64,000 nt of DNA, taken from NCBI GenBank assembly GCA_902800395.1, contig CADCEC010000001.1:124001-188000 (forward strand), read 5' to 3'. Position 1 is the first letter of the stretch; every line of letters begins with the position of its first letter. Of this stretch, positions 5,882 through 21,720 are shown piece by piece. A program made the position numbers and the translations under genes. The notes under the pieces were generated by a model. The model was not told where the DNA came from. It saw only the letters and a list, made by a program, of their open reading frames with translations, and ran no database searches. Origin of the DNA: an uncultured Bacteroidota bacterium (lineage in GTDB: Bacteria; Bacteroidota; Bacteroidia; Bacteroidales; P3).

Positions 5882-7525
5882 TTATTCAAAGTCCAAATCA
5901 TTATCCTGCGGCATACGATTATCAAGGTTTCTCTGTGATGAATCGATAGAGGGAATAATCGACGGAGGAGTGCTGTCTTCTATTATTGGTGGCAAGATGG
6001 GGTTGCCGTCGTTGTCCGTCTGCAGTTCTTTGCCGGGATTCTCGGGATTGCGCACACTCGGGCCATCAAAGTTGGCGTTGGGAGTGATATCCTTGTTCAT
6101 CTTGGAGTCCACCACCATGACCTGCGGGATGACGGGAATGTTGGAGAAGCGCACAAATCTGCCTTCGAATTCCAGCATCACCTTCCCAATGTCGCCTGAG
6201 CGGTGCTTGAGGATGCGCAGCTCGGCGAGGTTCTCCGTACTGTTGCCGTGCTCGTCCTGCTCCTCACCGCATTTGTACGGGCGGCGCAGCGCCAGCACGA
6301 TGTCGGCGTCCTGCTCGATGGATCCGGACTCACGGAGGTCGCTCAGCTGCGGAACCTGCAACGGGCGGTCTTCCACCTTACGGCTGAGCTGCGCCATAGC
6401 CAGCACGGGAATATCCAGTTCCTTGGACATCTCCTTCAACTGGCGGGAGATGTTGCTGATTTCCTGCTCGCGGTTGCGGTTCTTGCTGATATCTCCCGAG
6501 GCAGTCATCAACTGTAGGTAGTCGATGAAGACCATACGGATGCCGTAGCGCTGTTTCAGTCGGCGGCATTTGGCGCGGAGTTCAAAGATGTCCAGTCCGG
6601 CGGTATCGTCGATGTACAACGGAGCCTGCCGCAATTCATTGATTTTCTCCGCCAATGCTTTCTTCTCAAACTTGTTGAGTCCCGCCGCTTTCTTTAACTT
6701 GTTCGCCGAAATCTCGGCCTCCGAGGCCAACAGTCGGGCGGCGAGTTCCACGCCGGTCATCTCCAGCGAGAAGTACGCCACAGGCTTCTTGAAGTCCACA
6801 GCGATATTCCTCGCCATCGTCAGGCCGCAGGCCGTCTTACCCATGGCGGGACGGGCGGCAAGGATGATGAGCGTGCCGGGTTGGAAGCCGGAGGTATAGC
6901 GGTCGAGTTCGAAGAATCCCGACTGGATGCTGTAGTCCTCCGCTTTGTCCTCGGTGAGGAACTTCTGCTCCGCCTCCGTCATCAGCGCGTCCATGTTCTT
7001 GCCCTCGCGATGGAAACTCTTCTCGCTGACCTCCATCAGTTTCTTCTGCGCGTCATCCAGCAGTTCCACCGCATCGCAGGTCTCGTCGTAGGCTGCTTTG
7101 ATGCTCTCCGTGGAGGTGCGTATCACCTCGCGCTGCATGAACTTCTCCGTCAGGATCTGCAGGTGGTATTCCATGTGTGCCGCCGACACCACGTTGGAGG
7201 TGAGCTGGGAGATATAAAACGCACCTCCAGCCTGCTCCAGCTTGCCCTCTCGGCGGAGTTCCTCCACGACGGTGAGCATGTCCACCTCGTGGCTGCAGTT
7301 GTTCAGCATCCTTATCGCGGAGAAGATAATCTGGTGTTCTTCCTTGTAGAAGAGTCCCTCATGCATGCCGTAGATATGCCCGAACAGCGCATCTTGGTCG
7401 AGCATCAGCGCTCCCAGCACGCTCTTCTCCAGTTCCACTGCCTGCGGCGGCATCATGCCGTTGATCTCTCCCGTCTGCACATGGGTGAGTCGTGTCGGCC
7501 GCCGTTGTGTTGTAATAGTTTCCAT
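5882..7525 (-). CDS. dnaB: replicative DNA helicase DnaB
   Basis: The 547-residue protein has the DnaB N-terminal domain (MPPQAVELEKSVLGALMLD) and a RecA-like helicase domain with Walker A AARPAMGKTACG near residue 226, AYFSLEM, Walker B MVFIDYLQLM and the LSDLRESGSIEQDADIV motif. It unwinds DNA ahead of the replication fork as a hexamer. The C-terminus carries about 70 extra Pro/Asn/Asp-rich residues beyond the usual end of the helicase domain. The gene lies 15 nt downstream of an uncharacterised gene on the same strand. No intein is seen. Confidence 0.95.
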   Translation of the reverse strand: METITTQRRPTRLTHVQTGEINGMMPPQAVELEKSVLGALMLDQDALFGHIYGMHEGLFYKEEHQIIFSAIRMLNNCSHEVDMLTVVEELRREGKLEQAGGAFYISQLTSNVVSAAHMEYHLQILTEKFMQREVIRTSTESIKAAYDETCDAVELLDDAQKKLMEVSEKSFHREGKNMDALMTEAEQKFLTEDKAEDYSIQSGFFELDRYTSGFQPGTLIILAARPAMGKTACGLTMARNIAVDFKKPVAYFSLEMTGVELAARLLASEAEISANKLKKAAGLNKFEKKALAEKINELRQAPLYIDDTAGLDIFELRAKCRRLKQRYGIRMVFIDYLQLMTASGDISKNRNREQEISNISRQLKEMSKELDIPVLAMAQLSRKVEDRPLQVPQLSDLRESGSIEQDADIVLALRRPYKCGEEQDEHGNSTENLAELRILKHRSGDIGKVMLEFEGRFVRFSNIPVIPQVMVVDSKMNKDITPNANFDGPSVRNPENPGKELQTDNDGNPILPPIIEDSTPPSIIPSIDSSQRNLDNRMPQDNDLDFE

Positions 7526-7540
7526 ATATAGTGCTTTGTG

Positions 7541-8209
7541 TTATTTTTGTTTGTCAAAATTCAGTATCCTGTATATTTTGTCCGCCTGCTCCTGGCTGTG
7601 AAGCGCCAGCTTCTCTACTCCCTCATAAAAGGCAATCGGCGGCTCGCGGTACACCTTCTCCCTATGCAGCGCCACGAGGTAGGCCGAGAAGACCTTCTCC
7701 GCCAGCGACTCCAGGGCTCCGTCCTCAGGATAGCGGCGGTAGTCGTAGGGCGTGAAACTGTCGAAGCCCCACCACTCGATAAACTCCGACAACCGGGGCC
7801 ACAGGCCGCCCAGTTTAACAAAGGCTTTCACCATCGCGGAATAGGCCTCCGTCGGCTTGTCGAAGGGCATAGCCCAGATGGCTTTGAAAAGTCTGTCGCC
7901 GAACTCCGGTGTGAACCACTGCACACGGAGGCTGTCTTCTATGATATCCCTCACAGGCCACGCCACCGCTCCCCACAGCTTTTTGTCATTCTCTGGAATG
8001 CCGAGTTCGTAGAACTCCTGCATCTGGAGCAGGAATTTTTTCCATGCGTAAGCACGGGCATTGGCCTTCATCATCCTAATCAGCAACCACGCGATAGCCT
8101 CCTTCGGCCATTTGAGCGAAGGGTCGGCCTCCCAATCCGCGCGGGCAATGCGGTAGGCGGCTTGGTAGTCTTCTAAATTTTGGAAGTATTTCATCTGTCG
8201 ATACGACAT
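7541..8209 (-). CDS. conserved protein of unknown function
   Basis: The 222-residue soluble protein is rich in Trp and aromatic residues and is probably all-helical. It contains WPKEAIAWLLIRMMKANARAY, PVRDIIEDS and LWPRLSEFIEWWGFD segments. I do not recognise a named family. An alternative ATG five codons in (8194) would remove MSYRQ. It is probably co-transcribed with dnaB, which starts 15 nt downstream. The helical, tryptophan-rich make-up is seen in some Bacteroidetes phage and defence-associated proteins, but nothing here proves such a role. Confidence 0.6.
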   Translation of the reverse strand: MSYRQMKYFQNLEDYQAAYRIARADWEADPSLKWPKEAIAWLLIRMMKANARAYAWKKFLLQMQEFYELGIPENDKKLWGAVAWPVRDIIEDSLRVQWFTPEFGDRLFKAIWAMPFDKPTEAYSAMVKAFVKLGGLWPRLSEFIEWWGFDSFTPYDYRRYPEDGALESLAEKVFSAYLVALHREKVYREPPIAFYEGVEKLALHSQEQADKIYRILNFDKQK

Positions 8210-8475
8210 ATTTGGGTGTATTTTTAGTTATGAAAAATGAATTTTTGCAAATGTAGAAAATAGTAATCAACAATCCTGTTTGTCGTCCGGAGAAGTTATA
8301 AACATACAGATATGTCGATGATTTTCAGTAAAATACAGAACACTTATATTCCGCTGATTATCAGAAGAAACTTATTAACAATGCCCATCTGTTCGGCGAT
8401 TCGGGAGGCGATTTTTAGTTATCAACAATGACCTTTCGGGGCAGTTATCAACAGCCTATTTCGCCCTCCGAAGTG

Positions 8476-8841
8476 TTAAAATGGCACCTCGTCGTCAGGC
8501 GAAACCGGTATCGTCAGTTCATCCGTCTCTGGCTGTGGAGGTTCCGGTTTTGCTGGCTGTTCAGTGCCTGGTACTAACAGGTTGGTACACCGCAGCGTAG
8601 TGTAAAACTTCCCCCCTTTGCCTTCTCGACTCTCGGCATAGAAACTGACCCGTACCGGCATTCCGATAGTGAGGCCGTTGAGCATCGACAGCCTTTCCTC
8701 TCCGAACATCTCGAAGTATACGGGCTTGGGGTAGTCGCCCTCGCGCATGATGACGAACCCGCCTTTCTTTTTCTTGGTGCCGTCGCCGAACGTCACCTCC
8801 TCCTGTTGGAGGATTTTGTAGATTGTTCCGTTGATTTCCAT
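8476..8841 (-). CDS. DUF3127 single-strand DNA-binding-like protein
   Basis: The 121-residue product begins MEINGTIYKILQQEEVTFGDG and continues with the OB-fold pattern of DUF3127 (PKPVYFEMFGEERL, VSFYAESREGKGGKFYTTLR). A Pro/Glu-rich linker leads to the C-terminal tip DDEVPF. This closely resembles the acidic tip of bacterial SSB (DDDIPF) that recruits partner proteins. It probably binds single-stranded DNA in repair or replication. It is the third gene of a three-gene operon whose promoter at 9229-9263 carries the island's palindromic operator. Confidence 0.8.
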   Translation of the reverse strand: MEINGTIYKILQQEEVTFGDGTKKKKGGFVIMREGDYPKPVYFEMFGEERLSMLNGLTIGMPVRVSFYAESREGKGGKFYTTLRCTNLLVPGTEQPAKPEPPQPETDELTIPVSPDDEVPF

Positions 8842-8842
8842 G

Positions 8843-9034
8843 TTATTTGTTTTTGTTGTTATCTGCAGCCATCTCTTGTGGTGTCGGATAGCTTACAAGA
8901 GTGCCGTCCTTGTCTTCATAATAGTGCAGCACTCTACCCGACCACGCTTCTGTCTCCCAGCAGAAGGCCGCTCTTGAGATAGCGATGCTTTCCAATGGAG
9001 GCTTTGCCTCATTCTTGTTTTTCATAGCGGCCAT
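8843..9034 (-). CDS. small protein in the SSB-like operon
   Basis: This 63-residue protein begins MAAMKNKNEAKPPLESIAIS. The second Met four codons in is an alternative start. It has a compact Trp-containing centre (CWETEAWSGRVLHYYEDKDG) and a Lys/Asn-rich end. It fits between the microprotein gene (ends 9038) and the DUF3127 gene (starts 8841), with only a few bases on either side. This spacing, rather than homology, is the evidence that it is real. The function is unknown. Confidence 0.55.
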   Translation of the reverse strand: MAAMKNKNEAKPPLESIAISRAAFCWETEAWSGRVLHYYEDKDGTLVSYPTPQEMAADNNKNK

Positions 9035-9037
9035 TGT

Positions 9038-9166
9038 TTAGTCAATGTTCCAATAGGCTTCAGGATCACCATCGAGGGCATCATAAATGTCATCGTCACT
9101 CCAACCTTCCACATCGTGGACATAGGTTCCTGCAAACTCGGATTCGTCTTCGTAATCGTCGTACAT
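9038..9166 (-). CDS. acidic microprotein, first gene of the SSB-like operon
   Basis: The 42-residue protein reads MYDDYEDESEFAGTYVHDVE and ends in DALDGDPEAYWNID. Strongly acidic, it resembles short Bacteroidetes proteins ending in GDPxAYWNID that I recall as conserved but unnamed. It sits directly downstream of the promoter at 9229-9263 and immediately before the next small gene. The AGGGATAA near the start could help ribosome binding. Acidic proteins of this kind can act as DNA mimics or inhibitors, but that is speculation. Confidence 0.6.
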   Translation of the reverse strand: MYDDYEDESEFAGTYVHDVEGWSDDDIYDALDGDPEAYWNID

Positions 9167-9228
9167 AATCTTATCCCTGATACGTGTCGGGCGCAACTGT
9201 TAGGTTAAACAATCTTTTTTTCTGACTG

Positions 9229-9263
9229 CAAATATATAGTGGTCATGCGCAACTAATTTGCGC
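9229..9263 (-). promoter_or_regulatory. promoter with GCGCAA-N5-TTGCGC operator (site a)
   Basis: On the minus strand GCGCAA-N5-TTGCGC (9247-9263, arms extended to 8 bp) is followed after exactly 10 nt by the -7 element TATATTTG (9229-9236). The palindrome occupies the place of the usual -33 element. The promoter drives the acidic microprotein, small protein and DUF3127 operon. Confidence 0.75.
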
Positions 9264-9274
9264 ATCGTCAAAAA

Positions 9275-9898
9275 TCACTGACGTTCAGGTATTACGAACC
9301 CGACTTGCTGCTTCTTCACAGGGAATTGGCTGGCTACCCTGTCGGCATTGGCCTGCATGCCCTGCATCGTCTCGTTAATCTTTTCGAAAGCAAAACGGTA
9401 CTCTTCAAGAAAGTCCTTAGCGTTCTTCACCGAGGTCTCCACCATACAGCTGAAATGATCCCCATAGAACTTCACCGTAGTATGGTCATAATTGGCGTTG
9501 CACTCTGTGGCCAGCACGCACCATCCCTCCGGCTGCACATCGTTGATGACCTCGGGGGCGAACTCACACATGAAATGCACACGCTTCAATCCGTGAGTGC
9601 CGTTGTTCCATAGCCGAGCCTTCAAGGTAAGCTTCCCCTGCTTTACCAAGATGCTATCATCCTTCTTTTTGCAGGCCAATCCGGCCTTTTTGAGCTGTGC
9701 TATCGCTTGGTCGGAGAAGTCGTGCTTCTGCTTCATGCTTAGTGTGAGGTATGCGCACCATACAAGTACCGCCGCCGCACCCGAAATGACGAACCTCACC
9801 ATCATGTCCTCCACTATACCGGCACCCAGCAGGGCAACGGTCATAACGATGGTGCAGATGATGCTGATATGGGTAAAGATGGTCTTAGTGTTCTTCAT
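9275..9898 (-). CDS. membrane-anchored protein with YbjN-like cytosolic domain
   Basis: ATG 9898 was chosen because it follows the promoter at 9933-9967. The 207-residue product has two predicted membrane helices (about 8-27 and 32-53) and a cytosolic domain of about 150 residues. The pattern LKKAGLACKKKDDSILVKQG, then CEFAPEVINDVQ and FAFEKINETM, loosely resembles YbjN / type III chaperone-like folds. That similarity is only suggestive. The gene has its own copy of the palindromic operator, so it is probably co-regulated with the SSB-like operon downstream. Part of its leader recurs at 11.4 kb. Confidence 0.55.
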   Translation of the reverse strand: MKNTKTIFTHISIICTIVMTVALLGAGIVEDMMVRFVISGAAAVLVWCAYLTLSMKQKHDFSDQAIAQLKKAGLACKKKDDSILVKQGKLTLKARLWNNGTHGLKRVHFMCEFAPEVINDVQPEGWCVLATECNANYDHTTVKFYGDHFSCMVETSVKNAKDFLEEYRFAFEKINETMQGMQANADRVASQFPVKKQQVGFVIPERQ

Positions 9899-11466: not shown

Positions 11467-13575
11467 CTATGCGGCACAGGAGAGTTCGACCTTCTGCTTG
11501 GGATCTATTTTCTCATCCTTTTCCCCTATTTTGCGGACTTTCTTTATGAATGCGGAGTATATCACGCCGTTTCCCTTGGCATCGGAAAGCATCTTCGCAA
11601 AATCGGCATCAGACACCGAGGTGTTGTTGAATACTGCCACCAGTTCTTTGTCCTTGTCATCCTCCTTAATCTGGAGCTGAAGGTTGTTCTGAATAGCCTC
11701 CTTACGAATCCACACATAGGCCGGAACGTATTCAGGGCAGAGTTTGCAAAGCCGTTTGCAGATATCCATATTGGCCCGACCAAGTTGCTGGTTCAACTTT
11801 GCCTCAAAGAGATATTGCTTTTTGTCAATCGGCATCTTATCCTCCGACTTGGCAGACTTCTCCCGAATCTGGCTGACCACTTCAAGAGCCTCTATATATC
11901 GGCCCAACTCATACAAAGCTTTCCCTTTGATAAACATTGCCTCCAAGCAGGCTTTTCTTGCCAGAACCAAGTCGGCATAACCAATCGCTTCCTCAAAGCG
12001 ATTACCATACTGACACAATACCGCATTTAGAAAGTTGCAAGTCATGCTGCAATCTTTCAGCAGGGGAACACCCATTGTGGCTCCTTTCAGACAGTCATCA
12101 TCAAGCATCACATCAAACATCTTCTTGGCCATCAAAGCGGCATTGCGAAAATCACCACGGGTTATCTTGCAAAGCATCTGATCCAGACATGCCTTTGCAG
12201 CATTGTCATAGTCTTTGTTTGCCAAATACTTGTAGAAGTTCCTGCCGAAATCCAACTCATCATCAATCAGTGCCGTGTCATTGAAGGTGTTGGCAAATGC
12301 CTTTATCTCGGAGTTCTGCCTAATGTCATACCAACTGATGTTCTGGCTCAACGTCAGACCATCCAATGAGCGCAAACGGCTGATGGCAACGTATGCCTGA
12401 CCCGACAAGAAAGTGCCATGGGAAAGGTCGAAGTGCATACGGTCGAATGTCATCCCTTGTGATTTGTGAATGGTAATAGCCCAGGCCAGTTTCAGTGGAT
12501 ATTGTGTAAACGTTCCGATGACCTCGGCTTCAATCTTACGTGCGTCTTTATTGAAGGCTTTCTCCTTTGACTCCCAGGTCATCTTCTCCACATTCACTTC
12601 CTTCCCGTTCTCCAACTGGACGAGGATGCCCTCATCAGACAGTTCTTTCACTTTGGCGATGGTTCCATTAACGCAGCCGTGGGAATAGTCGTTACGACAG
12701 AAGATAACCTGAGCCCCAACCTTGAGTCTAAGCGTTTCGGGAACGGGAATATCCTTGGCTTTTATCTCGCCTTCCTTTTCGCCCTCATAGCAAAACTCTT
12801 CGGATTGTATCTCTTCCAACTTGGCCTCATTGATCCTATCGGCCACATCATTGCGGCTTGTAACAGTAATATAGTAGTCTTTTGCCGACATATTGTCGCA
12901 AACATGCTGGTTGAGAATATCCAAGTCCTCCCAAGTATTGCTTCCAAAACGCATACGATTCAGAATGTCGAGGAACACTTTGTCGTTTTGACGATATACA
13001 TGAGTGAATTCTATTTTAGGAAGAGGCATATGGCTGAACACAGAAGCCTTATAAAAGTATGGAATGCCGTCTCCATAAAGAGCGCGCAGCACCTCCTCAT
13101 CGACAGACCCGCGTTTCACAACCGGCGGCAATTGGAAGAGGTCTCCAACAAAAATCATCTGTTTACCCCCAAAAGGAAGATGAGTACTGAATACTGCACG
13201 GAGGAAACGGTCCATCCCATCCACCAAATCGCAGCGTACCATTGAGGCCTCATCTATAATGATGGTATCTGTCCTTTGCAGCAACAATCGCTTTTCATAG
13301 GGCACTTCCATCCTGGTAAACGGAGCTATCACCTCCAGAGGGAATCCAAAAAAGGAATGGATGGTTTGACCGCCAGCGTTAAGAGCTGCTATTCCGGTTG
13401 GGGCAAGAACAAGGAAGTTCTTGTTTATCTCCTCTTGAATCCTTTTTACGAAAGTGGTCTTACCGGTACCCGCCTTGCCAGTAATGAAGAGACTGGTGTT
13501 GGTATTGGCAACAAGGTCGTATGCCTTCTGCTGCTCAATATTTGTTTTGTCCAATGCGATTTCTTCGTTTTTCAT
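11467..13575 (-). CDS. PIF1-like helicase with C-terminal TPR-like region
   Basis: The ATG at 13575 gives 702 residues starting MKNEEIALDKTNIEQQ, and upstream codons precede the promoter and are rejected. Walker A ITGKAGTGKTT lies near residue 31, followed by LAPTGIAALNAGGQTIHSFF, Walker B IIIDEASMV and GDLFQLPPVV. The late helicase motif AITIHKSQGMTFDRM is followed by YVAISRLRSLDGL. This is a superfamily 1B PIF1/RecD-like DNA helicase. The last 230 or so residues are helical with TPR-like periodicity. It should unwind DNA or remove bound proteins or structures. Its promoter carries the palindromic operator (site d), linking it to the WYL regulator and SSB-like operon. Confidence 0.85.
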   Translation of the reverse strand: MKNEEIALDKTNIEQQKAYDLVANTNTSLFITGKAGTGKTTFVKRIQEEINKNFLVLAPTGIAALNAGGQTIHSFFGFPLEVIAPFTRMEVPYEKRLLLQRTDTIIIDEASMVRCDLVDGMDRFLRAVFSTHLPFGGKQMIFVGDLFQLPPVVKRGSVDEEVLRALYGDGIPYFYKASVFSHMPLPKIEFTHVYRQNDKVFLDILNRMRFGSNTWEDLDILNQHVCDNMSAKDYYITVTSRNDVADRINEAKLEEIQSEEFCYEGEKEGEIKAKDIPVPETLRLKVGAQVIFCRNDYSHGCVNGTIAKVKELSDEGILVQLENGKEVNVEKMTWESKEKAFNKDARKIEAEVIGTFTQYPLKLAWAITIHKSQGMTFDRMHFDLSHGTFLSGQAYVAISRLRSLDGLTLSQNISWYDIRQNSEIKAFANTFNDTALIDDELDFGRNFYKYLANKDYDNAAKACLDQMLCKITRGDFRNAALMAKKMFDVMLDDDCLKGATMGVPLLKDCSMTCNFLNAVLCQYGNRFEEAIGYADLVLARKACLEAMFIKGKALYELGRYIEALEVVSQIREKSAKSEDKMPIDKKQYLFEAKLNQQLGRANMDICKRLCKLCPEYVPAYVWIRKEAIQNNLQLQIKEDDKDKELVAVFNNTSVSDADFAKMLSDAKGNGVIYSAFIKKVRKIGEKDEKIDPKQKVELSCAA

Positions 13576-13602
13576 AATGGCGGGTTGTTTGTTTTTCGAG
13601 TG

Positions 13603-13637
13603 CAAAAATACTACGACCACGCGCAGTCTTTTTGCAC
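13603..13637 (-). promoter_or_regulatory. promoter with near-palindromic operator (site d)
   Basis: GCGCAG-N5-TTGCAC on the + strand (13621-13637), one change in each arm, lies 10 nt from the -7 element TATTTTTG (13603-13610, minus strand). It drives the PIF1-like helicase gene. Confidence 0.65.
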
Positions 13638-13643
13638 GGACAT

Positions 13644-13676
13644 AAAAATCCCCCACTTGCAATCCACAAATGAGGG
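13644..13676 (-). terminator. intrinsic terminator downstream of retron operon
   Basis: In the minus-strand transcript a 10-bp stem including two G-U pairs (arms CCCTCATTTG and CAAGTGGGGG, 7-nt loop) is followed by ATTTTT. It lies 29 nt after the small basic protein gene and just before the helicase promoter. Confidence 0.65.
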
Positions 13677-19705: not shown

Positions 19706-19733
19706 GATTCTTTATAGATTGTTTTCTTTGATT

Positions 19734-19888
19734 GGTTTTGCCCTCTTGATTTCTTCAGAATATCCTATAAGATAAAACGCTTACGGGATCGATACTCCTC
19801 CTATACAAACATTAAAACAATACAAGCCGATAACAGCTTGCGACCTATGCAATGCACAGGCAGTCAAATTCAGAAGAGGGCAAAAACC
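19734..19888 (-). ncRNA. retron msr-msd RNA
   Basis: In the transcript the 5' arm GGTTTTTGCCCTCTT (a1, 19888-19874) pairs with the 3' arm AAGAGGGCAAAACC (a2, 19747-19734). Twelve pairs are perfect, then a one-base bulge and two more pairs follow. Between them are two short hairpins typical of msr: CCTGTGC/GCATAGG with a 3-nt loop, and CAAGC/GCTTG with an 8-nt loop. A longer msd-like hairpin is closed by GAGTAT/ATATTC and GTAAG/CTTAT. The RT start codon follows a2 after 28 nt. The position, size of about 155 nt and arm pairing are those of a retron template. The exact branching G is not assigned. Confidence 0.85.
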
Positions 19889-19926
19889 ACATCAAAGAAC
19901 TCTCTTTTTATTTTATTTTGGAAATG

Positions 19927-19958
19927 CAAAGATACGACATTTATCACATCCGTGCAAA
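19927..19958 (-). promoter_or_regulatory. proximal promoter of the retron RNA
   Basis: On the minus strand TTTG (19958-19955), a 20-nt spacer and TATCTTTG (19934-19927) match the Bacteroidetes consensus. Transcription would start about 30 nt before the a1 arm of the retron RNA. No operator is present here. Confidence 0.7.
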
Positions 19959-19982: not shown

Positions 19983-20017
19983 CAAAAGTACAGTTTCCAT
20001 GCGCAACTTATTTGCGC
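19983..20017 (-). promoter_or_regulatory. distal promoter with GCGCAA-N5-TTGCGC operator (site e)
   Basis: The perfect palindrome 20001-20017 precedes the -7 element TACTTTTG (19990-19983) by 10 nt. It overlaps the last codons of the WYL gene. The retron RNA lies downstream. A 12-codon frame starting MKKREEFF follows immediately and then stops. Confidence 0.7.
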
Positions 20018-21078
20018 CAGGGTTTGTATATTTCATACATCGCTGTAATTCTTTCCATTACGGTGTCACGGATATTGTCCGGCGATAGCACTATGAGGTC
20101 CTCCCGGAACGATATCAGCTCCCGGATGAGCTCGTAGTTCTCGATGCAGTCAATGGAAAAGAAAGCTCCACCATTCAACATGGGATACTGCCTACGCAGT
20201 TCGGCTTCTTTTTCTCCGCGATAATGTTTCTGCGAATCGTGGATGGGCTTGGTGGCCACATAATCTTTGGAACTATCACTCACCCAGAAGAGGATGGTCT
20301 GGACCGGTCGGTTCTCGTAGAGCGTCACACCTACAATATCTTCAAAGCGCTCGTTCAAATCCCCATCATATTCCACATAATTATGGTTGGGCAAAGGCAC
20401 AACGCTATCTATGCGATCGAGAGCAAAATTCAAGATCTTACCCGTATCTTCCGCAGCAGCTATCAGGAACCACCGACGATTGTACTCCTTAAGCAGATAG
20501 GGGATAAGTGTTGTCTGCCGGTCCTCATCTGGAGTGTCAAATCGGTGATAGTGAAGTTCCACAACCTGCTTTTGCGATATGGCCGTGAATAGTTCACCGA
20601 GTAGCGTGGAATTTTCCAACGGGTTCTTGGTGAATGAGATTATCTGACGGTCGGTCTTCACGTTCAGACTCTTACGCAAAGCTTCCAAACCATCCAAATT
20701 TGGAAGGCCATCGAACTGTCCCAGCATAGACAATGCCTCGGAGAGGAGGTACTTTTCATCCTCCGTCATCTCTTTCTTGAAGATCGAGAACGTGGGGTCA
20801 GCATAACGGTGACAGCTCTTTTTGACAGTCTTATTAGGGTTGGTTTGGCTGGGAACATCAATCTGATAATGTTCAATCTCAGCGAGGAATGGCCCTTCGT
20901 ATTCCAGATAATGAAGATCCATTTCAATGGTACGGCGACTCACAGGTTCCTGGCCGAGTTCTTCCAATTCCTCATTTACATGTTGACGCAAGTCCTCCGT
21001 GGAATAGTGATGGTAGCGGTTGGCCAACAACTTATCCAGAATATAGTATCGTGTTACTGCGTTCTTGTTTGCGGGCAT
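20008..21078 (-). CDS. WYL-domain transcriptional regulator
   Basis: The 356-residue protein begins with a winged helix-turn-helix region (ENRYHHYSTEDL-like start, SRRTIEMDLHYLE as recognition helix). The WYL domain spans about 160-240 (HYHRFDTPDEDRQTTLIPYLLKEYNRRWFLIAAAE...LDRIDSV), followed by a WCX-like C-terminal domain. WYL regulators often control defence systems and DNA-damage genes and can sense nucleic-acid ligands. The gene has its own copy of the island operator 30 nt upstream (site f), which suggests autoregulation, and site e overlaps its 3' end. It is the best candidate for the protein that binds the six GCGCAA palindromes. Confidence 0.85.
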   Translation of the reverse strand: MPANKNAVTRYYILDKLLANRYHHYSTEDLRQHVNEELEELGQEPVSRRTIEMDLHYLEYEGPFLAEIEHYQIDVPSQTNPNKTVKKSCHRYADPTFSIFKKEMTEDEKYLLSEALSMLGQFDGLPNLDGLEALRKSLNVKTDRQIISFTKNPLENSTLLGELFTAISQKQVVELHYHRFDTPDEDRQTTLIPYLLKEYNRRWFLIAAAEDTGKILNFALDRIDSVVPLPNHNYVEYDGDLNERFEDIVGVTLYENRPVQTILFWVSDSSKDYVATKPIHDSQKHYRGEKEAELRRQYPMLNGGAFFSIDCIENYELIRELISFREDLIVLSPDNIRDTVMERITAMYEIYKPWRK

Positions 21079-21222: not shown

Positions 21223-21720
21223 TTCACTTCCACTTTTCCACTCTCGATCAGCCTTACGTTGTTCTCTATCATGTTTCTCAACTCCTCTTCGGTGGGCATG
21301 TAGGGCAGGTATTCATCCCTCTTGTGCCGCTTCGGTCAGGTAGTAATGACGTGCATTGCCATCTTGTATACGCATTATCAGTCTATTATGGATCCAGCTC
21401 AATTTGCTACACAGTGTGTAGCCTTTTTCATCGTTGGCGTATGTCTTGTAGAACTGGCGCATATTCTTCAGATTGGCGTACGAGAAACCGTTGCCAAATT
21501 CCGGGGTGAGTTCTTTCGACAATCGTTTCAGGATGTATGCTCCATAGTCGGCCCTATCGGATCCTTTTTGCTCCTCCACCACTATCCTTTGGCCGATAAG
21601 CCAGTAGGTGGTGACCATAGCGGTGTTTATGGCACGGACTGTCGCCTGTCGTGCCTGTGACAACAGGGTGCGCACGTCGCCCACAAGCTTGTCCAGTTGG
21701 TTATTCTGTAATGTGTTCAT
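21219..21720 (-). pseudogene. decayed DUF1016 (YhcG-type) nuclease gene
   Basis: The first 135 codons encode the DUF1016 N-terminal domain (LLSQARQATVRAINTAMVTT, YWLIGQRIVVEEQ, GFSYANLKNMRQFY). The frame then stops at TEAAQEG. In the next frame the typical C-terminal end resumes as DEYLPYMPTEEELRNMI and runs to GKVEVK. The whole PD-(D/E)XK nuclease core between the two parts is missing. A deletion has joined the ends out of frame. It has a recognisable promoter at 21780-21811. Intact relatives occur in restriction and defence islands. Confidence 0.75.

Follow-up and report, generated by a model that had tools for sequence, protein, structure and literature searches.

The window analysed here, a 64,000-nucleotide stretch of DNA from an uncultured Bacteroidota bacterium, carries on its minus strand a retron whose reverse transcriptase (RT) is fused to a HisKin domain and encoded by the first gene of a conserved three-gene operon; this fusion and the operon behind it are the more unusual part of the locus. 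The retron template RNA is real, and its arms and hairpin B are backed by covariation. For the locus as a whole, we favour the reading that the retron has an RNase effector gated by a receiver and held by docking and sequestration, to which we give a probability of roughly two in three. A preliminary description of this DNA had already proposed a retron, an interpretation now supported by the covariation of the arms, by compensatory changes in hairpin B, and by the matches of the RT to retron models and structures. The coordinates of all features are collected in Table 1.

Table 1. Features of the retron locus, listed in the direction of transcription (positions are those of the window).
Feature	Position	Strand	Remarks
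Promoter match TTTG-N20-TATCTTTG	19927..19958	-	Pattern match upstream of a1
Retron arm a1	19874..19899	-	Inner 12 pairs perfect (19885-19874); two bulges interrupt the outer pairing
Conserved motif CTGAATTTGAC after a1	19863..19873	-	In relatives CTGAATTAGA, ATATTGA
msr hairpin A	19843..19861	-	From the fold
msr hairpin B	19822..19841	-	CTG..ATCGG conserved core; compensatory stem changes
Presumed msd region	19748..19821	-	AATGTT and TCTGAAGAAAT motifs common to relatives; no significant hairpin
Retron arm a2	19724..19747	-	12-mer core 19747-19736
RT-HisKin protein, 1001 aa	16700..19705	-	Retron-type RT at about 105-430, linker, HisKin-conflict 676-995
Receiver-like protein, FSGG family, 256 aa	15952..16722	-	Overlaps RT gene by 23 bp
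iREC-REC-HEPN-like protein, 678 aa	13919..15955	-	Overlaps small-protein gene by 4 bp

The operon proteins and a possible mechanism

By sequence, the NAxxH (N197-H201) and VTG motifs named in the preliminary description are both present in the window RT, together with YADD. In five RT-HisKin homologs YADD, A198, H201 and G341 are invariant, and N197, V339 and T340 are variable. Among the best 25 of 66 families in PADLOC, the models closest to the window RT are RT-XI (3e-111; RT-protease) and XII (5.7e-106; RT-TIR), with RT_IX far weaker than XI (6.6e-58). The best solved relatives in the PDB are Ec67 (2.7e-43) and Ec86 (3.7e-38). Matches to types XI, XII and I-C in NCBIfam and PADLOC (best 25 of 66 families) all end at or before residue 431, and the RT-HisKin protein has just RVT_1 and HisKin-conflict as Pfam matches, with no fused protease, TIR or Toprim domain.

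The C-terminal domain matches the Pfam family HisKin-conflict (PF22561) at 1.9e-45, and the same family is matched by all 29 HisKin rows, window included. An AlphaFold model of the domain (pLDDT 91) has histidine kinases as its top Foldseek matches; two matches to CpxA (5.3e-4 and 5.6e-4) are the only ones at or below 0.001, and the TM-scores are modest, at about 0.3 of the query. Judged by this model, the domain has a histidine-kinase fold. The places of its motifs were set by eye from the order of strands and helices in the model, and at these places we see no conservation of the N-box Asn, G1 or G2 ATP-binding motifs among 29 HisKin sequences. The column aligned with the G1 Asp holds His in 15 of these, Gln in 13 and Asp in one, and the glycine-rich G2 box is reduced. 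H700 is invariant in the HisKin family (36/36) and sits in a loop of the model, not on a long DHp helix. The count for H700 leaves out L006, which lies on the same contig as L110, such that the 37 HisKin loci are 36 distinct ones; L003/L047 and L012/L090 are likewise one contig each.

The small protein encoded by the second gene retains a receiver-like IDD start and the FSGG motif, and its H69 and S100 are invariant across 29 rows. By our own placement, H69 would occupy the position of the phospho-Asp. A match to XendoU in one of the 29 members (E 0.0022) was rejected as chance. In the third protein, an iREC domain (residues 24-123) precedes a REC region, after which the C-terminal part is helical. 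Residue counts were made on 37 of the 41 iREC proteins, four short pieces being omitted, and in all 37 the REC residues D243, D299, A339 and K357 are invariant; D243, D299 and K357 are the set expected of a phosphorylatable receiver. Response_reg is matched by 28 of 33 iREC-REC members, and the best Foldseek matches of the iREC-REC model are PorX and CheY-like receivers, with an E-value of 1.1e-3 at best. Alignments A5 (29 rows) and A6 (33 rows) comprise the window and genome_contigs loci only.

The HEPN RNase motif is R-x4-6-H, and this pattern fits the C-terminal region of all 37 iREC-REC proteins, with a spacing of four, five and six in 23, 13 and one of them, respectively. R552 and H558 are invariant (37/37), N553 is found in 30 of 37, and E448 is also marked in the HEPN-like region. 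A related form of the motif is named in the excerpt of PMC13405049. Pfam HEPN_RiboL-PSP is matched by two of the 33 members (best 6.9e-7). The model places helices at 414-454 and 543-580, with pLDDT at 29-44 from about residue 590, and a Foldseek search with the whole iREC-REC model gave nothing at or below 0.001 and no HEPN by title among the best 50 matches listed. We consider the C-terminus a probable HEPN-type RNase, mainly from the R...H motif.

There is no winged-helix gene or small HEPN gene among the three genes of the operon. The helicase gene at 11467-13662, which starts some 256 bp past the iREC gene, was considered as a further member and rejected. TBP-TOTE is absent from the best 25 of the 31 Pfam matches of this helicase (PIF1), which also has relatives in 54 of 61 genomes, its own included; seven of these relatives, at 58-64% identity, are in genomes of the same genus that have no RT match. 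On the other side of the RT gene, a WYL regulator (20008-21078, minus strand) lies upstream in the same direction and is not seen as part of the conserved operon. WYL genes often adjoin defence loci. Beside it, 21313-21720 (minus strand) encodes a 135-aa DUF1016_N / PDC-S02 protein that is possibly the remnant of another defence gene.

In the reading that we favour, the template RNA and the three overlapping or near-adjacent genes would be carried on a single transcript, as their spacing and the promoter match suggest. The RT would bind the msr hairpins between the a1 and a2 arms and give rise to msDNA, and the HisKin domain fused to it would dock the REC region of the third protein in the manner in which kinases dock response regulators. 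Docking would keep the C-terminal HEPN RNase inactive within the RT-msDNA complex, and the small receiver-like protein might cap or tune the HisKin-REC contact. Once a phage protein altered the msDNA or the RT, the receiver would be freed or its phosphate state changed, upon which HEPN dimers would form and cut RNA, probably tRNA, stopping growth ahead of phage release. These last steps are proposed by analogy with retron-Kva2, in which, according to the excerpt of PMC13405049, a HEPN dimer forms the sequestered core of the RT-msDNA complex until it is released to cleave tRNA. Docking and sequestration are likelier than ordinary kinase signalling because the HisKin domain is without conserved ATP-binding motifs. 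The phosphate state of the REC domain probably still matters, because its phosphorylation residues are invariant.

Two other readings are unlikely in our view. The receivers could be kinase-independent nucleotide switches and the HisKin domain a degenerate nucleotide sensor, such that the retron would sense a nucleotide signal with no handing-on of phosphate. This would suit the degenerate ATP site of the HisKin domain and the invariant His of the small protein at the presumed phospho-Asp place, and the excerpt of PMC8195603 has kinase-independent, nucleotide-responsive receivers predicted in other conflict systems; however, Asp, Asp and Lys are all retained in the middle REC, a sign of phosphate chemistry. 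The second is a true phosphorelay, in which the HisKin domain, through H700, would phosphorylate REC D299 upon disturbance of the msDNA and so turn the HEPN RNase on. The invariance of the REC phosphorylation residues (37/37) and of H700 (36/36), with histidine kinases as the top fold matches, is what such a relay would lead us to see, but the N-box Asn and the G2 glycines are unconserved, the column aligned with the G1 Asp has His or Gln in all but one of the 29 sequences, and the model puts H700 in a loop, not on a long DHp helix. We are also doubtful of a more elaborate phosphorylation-gated retron, in which a noncanonical RT-fused kinase would read msDNA damage and pass phosphate to the REC domain, perhaps via the His of the small protein, thereby switching the HEPN RNase. 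If true, this would join two-component signalling and retron immunity in one operon.

Distribution of the operon and exchange of modules

In a set of 99 RT loci we see the HisKin domain in 37 (fused to the RT in 16 and encoded by the next gene in 21), the small protein in 35 and the iREC-REC protein in 40, and the gene order RT-HisKin, small protein, iREC-REC is kept wherever these are present. Because the loci were gathered mainly by RT similarity, the counts do not equal natural frequency. Queries made with the HisKin domain only are free of this collection bias, and their six strong genome hits (G000, G114, G169, G400, G511 and G771) are all RT-fused or RT-adjacent; weak matches to the HisKin region in G135, G332 and G608 have E-values of 7.5e-5 to 9.9e-4. 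HisKin is rare, being found at E <=0.001 in 6/393, 4/395 and 2/395 genomes, with weak hits and the window's own genome included. The first genome scan and the first viral scan, each with the single protein, gave no matches, a search of viral sequences by means of the HisKin alignment gave 97 pattern hits and no relative, and a plasmid scan with the window HisKin found nothing.

The operon occurs in other Bacteroidales (L038, L039 and L040) and in many named Bacteroidota among the genome_contigs loci. In Chryseobacterium oryzae the operon is plasmid-borne, and its four genes match RVT_1, HisKin-conflict (6.4e-32), our small-protein profile (4.6e-35) and our iREC profile (1.6e-134), and the iREC protein has RNKFIH near its end. 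A plasmid of Chryseobacterium balustinum has an RT gene and a HisKin gene next to each other. Loci that have iREC and no HisKin match (L107, L074, L052, L066 and L113) may contain a divergent HisKin. The faecal contig L037 (MT837349.1), filed as 'Bacteriophage sp.', holds the entire operon between genes that appear by eye to encode an integrase-like protein and a mannose-6-phosphate isomerase, and from these flanking genes it is probably a piece of bacterial chromosome. In L115, an operon from a metagenome-assembled genome titled Bacillota, the RT groups tightly with Bacteroidota RTs; the contig is probably misbinned or the locus recently transferred.

In many sister loci without HisKin, the RT is followed instead by a stand-alone protein, some 240-340 aa long. 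Thirty-one such partners were hand-picked among 58 RT genes that have neither HisKin nor iREC, and for others of the 58 the next gene is absent or unlike, for example DnaB_C after L005. In the 31 proteins, E110, R204 and H209 (L047 numbering) are invariant. The first motif pattern flagged 21 of them; the spacing is R-x4-H in 22 and R-x3-H in nine, the latter below that of the usual HEPN motif. Pfam HEPN models matched three of ten downstream proteins tested, all under the curated cut-offs, and a profile comparison of the iREC-REC C-terminus with the stand-alone proteins gave a weak match (probability 8.8%, E 0.0038), the short aligned part of both C-termini including the RN..H motif. Loci in which the RT is followed by a HEPN-like stand-alone protein, with no HisKin, include L047, L054, L062, L099 and L012. 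The RTs of this second, L047-type group have complementary arms upstream in many cases, and the group may be a second, uncatalogued set of Bacteroidota retrons. L071 carries tandem retron-type RT genes (5938-7422 and 7826-9415, plus strand), each with its own upstream arms.

A quick RT tree of 98 rows, for which L003-L007 and L012 were omitted and four reference rows added, places the window within a 97%-supported set of 14 rows, of which four have the HisKin/iREC operon and ten have no HisKin or iREC detected. Over the whole tree the HisKin/iREC label changes 15 times, at least nine of these on starred branches, with the proviso that some of the rows scored as without it are near contig ends and may be incomplete. 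From these sequences, exchange of RT-RNA sensors and effector modules is probable, and exchange of this repeated kind indicates that their association is not one old fixed unit. It would also fit the view that the RT and its RNA form a retron and that the downstream genes are an independent defence module merely adjoining it, much as HipA-DUF3037 sits beside Retron-Sda1 in the excerpt of PMC12548924. We consider this improbable for the present locus, as 16 of the 37 HisKin loci encode this domain in one protein with the RT, the genes overlap by 23 and 4 bp, and all six strong HisKin genome hits are linked to an RT.

The template RNA and its covarying arms

The gap between the WYL and RT genes is 302 nt long (20007-19706), as the preliminary description had it, and the perfect 12-bp pairing reported there between TTTTGCCCTCTT (19885-19874) and AAGAGGGCAAAA (19747-19736) was also borne out. 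In the minimum free energy fold, the arms lengthen across two bulges to 24 pairs (19899-19874 / 19747-19724); the interval first assigned to the RNA, 19734-19888, does contain the core arms, but the extended stem runs about 10 nt past each of its ends. The distance between a2 and the RT start had been put at 28 nt. It is in fact 30 nt from the 12-mer a2 to the RT ATG, and 18 nt from the extended a2 arm. The whole fold has an energy of -60.8 kcal/mol (z -5.76), with none of 200 shuffles equally stable, and the arm score of the window exceeds that of all 60 dinucleotide shuffles. The pattern TTTGN{18,21}TANNTTTG, which we take to represent the Bacteroidota-type promoter consensus, has 10 matches in the window against 0.6 expected, and the match at 19958-19927 ends 27 nt ahead of the outer end of a1.

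Between the arms, the two short msr hairpins of the preliminary description are found at 19861-19843 and 19841-19822 (-18.6 kcal/mol, z -3.99, 0/200 shuffles). Hairpin B was compared over 10 of 12 rows, with L007 and L053 omitted for an insert in this hairpin, and shows two-sided changes at five of its eight pairs, amounting to six cells in total, with all 80 cells paired (100%). None of 500 shuffles reached this covariation, in a test where the shuffles ignore relatedness and three rows are near-copies. The longer msd-like hairpin that had been described found no support in the window. As RNA, 19822-19748 folds with z +1.03 and 169 of 200 shuffles are as stable, and as DNA the same segment gives z +0.85, with 160 of 200 shuffles equally stable. 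Values for the msd region differ among relatives: L046 has z -5.47 as RNA (0/200 shuffles) and just z -1.65 as DNA, L084 has z -4.57 as DNA, and L052 has z -1.96 as RNA. The motif CTGAATTTGAC after a1 is a candidate branch-guanosine site. TTGA/TTAGA is conserved following a1 in relatives, and the window and its close relatives have in common CTGAATTAGA after a1, hairpin B, AATGTT and TCTGAAGTAAT.

Arms of differing sequence recur ahead of the RT in relatives. The survey of template RNAs took in loci with HisKin or iREC, and 40 of 41 had enough upstream DNA, L042 (61 nt upstream) being dropped. The preliminary description had named a lack of a1/a2 covariation in relatives as evidence that would count against a retron; the opposite was found, with own pairs beating foreign ones. 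The mean pairing of own a1 and a2 was 14.3 against 9.9 for foreign combinations over the 40 loci, and none of 5000 permutations reached the own mean, in a test that used fixed zones and unselected arms. The best arm pair was beaten by at most three of 60 shuffles in 31 of 40 loci, by none in 21 and by more than three in nine, and the best a2 ends 6-30 nt ahead of the annotated RT start in 32 of 40. The own partner was strictly the best in both directions for 15 of 40 loci, window included, a count that is lowered because related loci have arm sequences in common. In five loci the arm score was near the foreign mean (L039, L121, L115, L118 and L076); for L039, L115 and L076 the best arms overrun the annotated RT start and hence lie outside the fixed zone. 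Upstream sequences were compared for 35 of the 40 loci, leaving out L121, L118, L077, L013 and L088 (weak arms; A/T-rich in L077).

In Rfam, no family reached its gathering score on the window template RNA, and a permissive search gave two sub-threshold matches to eukaryotic snoRNAs only. That the upstream RNA is instead a structured 5' UTR or terminator would agree with this Rfam result and with the weak msd hairpin of the window, but is highly improbable in view of the covarying arms found shortly ahead of retron-type RTs across Bacteroidota and of the msr hairpin with its compensatory changes.

Relation to known retrons and conflict systems

Retrons, bacterial immune systems made up around a reverse transcriptase with its template RNA, are sorted by effector. 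The group described here is spread over Bacteroidota and is present on Chryseobacterium plasmids, and it supplies many candidate template RNAs from this phylum, from which, to our knowledge, few retrons have been characterised. With it, one can test how a retron complex might control its effector by way of a kinase-receiver docking pair, the logic of which is well understood, and how RTs swap effector modules. The excerpt of PMC13405049 places retrons in sixteen subtypes, with more still under classification. Among the PADLOC and NCBIfam matches listed (PADLOC best 25 of 66), there is no retron with HisKin on the RT or with a receiver-HEPN effector. A literature search, with the subscription literature mostly outside its scope, brought up no paper that we recognised as treating a retron with HisKin, iREC or TOTE among the matches listed, and neither HisKin on an RT nor a receiver-HEPN effector is described in the excerpts consulted.

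Types XI (RT-protease) and XII (RT-TIR), the closest PADLOC RT models among the best 25 of 66 families, resemble the window in having an effector domain fused to the C-terminus of the RT. They differ in that the sole Pfam match after the window RT is HisKin-conflict, and in the two further genes. Type I-C Ec67/Eco2 (RT-Toprim), the best solved relative of the RT, has the C-terminal fusion in common, whereas the window protein is without a Toprim match; we know of no Ec67-type protein that carries HisKin, REC or HEPN. In the type IX retron Kva2 (RT, winged helix and HEPN RNase), the HEPN effector is sequestered by RT-msDNA according to the excerpt of PMC13405049, and by analogy we propose sequestration for the HEPN-like effector of the window. 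The Kva2 HEPN is small, without the canonical motif and accompanied by a winged-helix protein, whereas in the window the motif is present in the HEPN-like domain, which forms one protein with iREC-REC, and a search of the operon gave no winged-helix gene.

There is also a connection to the TOTE conflict systems (PF22721, PF22707 and PF22708), as the retron operon of L038 continues into TOTE genes. In L038:3656-9589, the HisKin retron operon is followed by a DUF3127 gene, a TBP-TOTE helicase and a TPR/S1CSD-TOTE protein, and this run of genes indicates that a retron can be linked to TOTE conflict modules. Our own profiles find related TOTE-type genes in L039 and L040. Our helicase profile, which matches in 37 of 99 loci, draws in general helicases, and we give no count of TOTE genes.

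Finally, the HisKin-conflict and iREC conflict systems (Pfam PF22561 and PF22563) contain the same domain families as the window. Both domains have been described before, as their Pfam names show. We presume that these names derive from Burroughs and Aravind 2020, where the linkage to RTs may already have been noted. What the present analysis shows beyond those systems is the template RNA and the retron nature of the locus.
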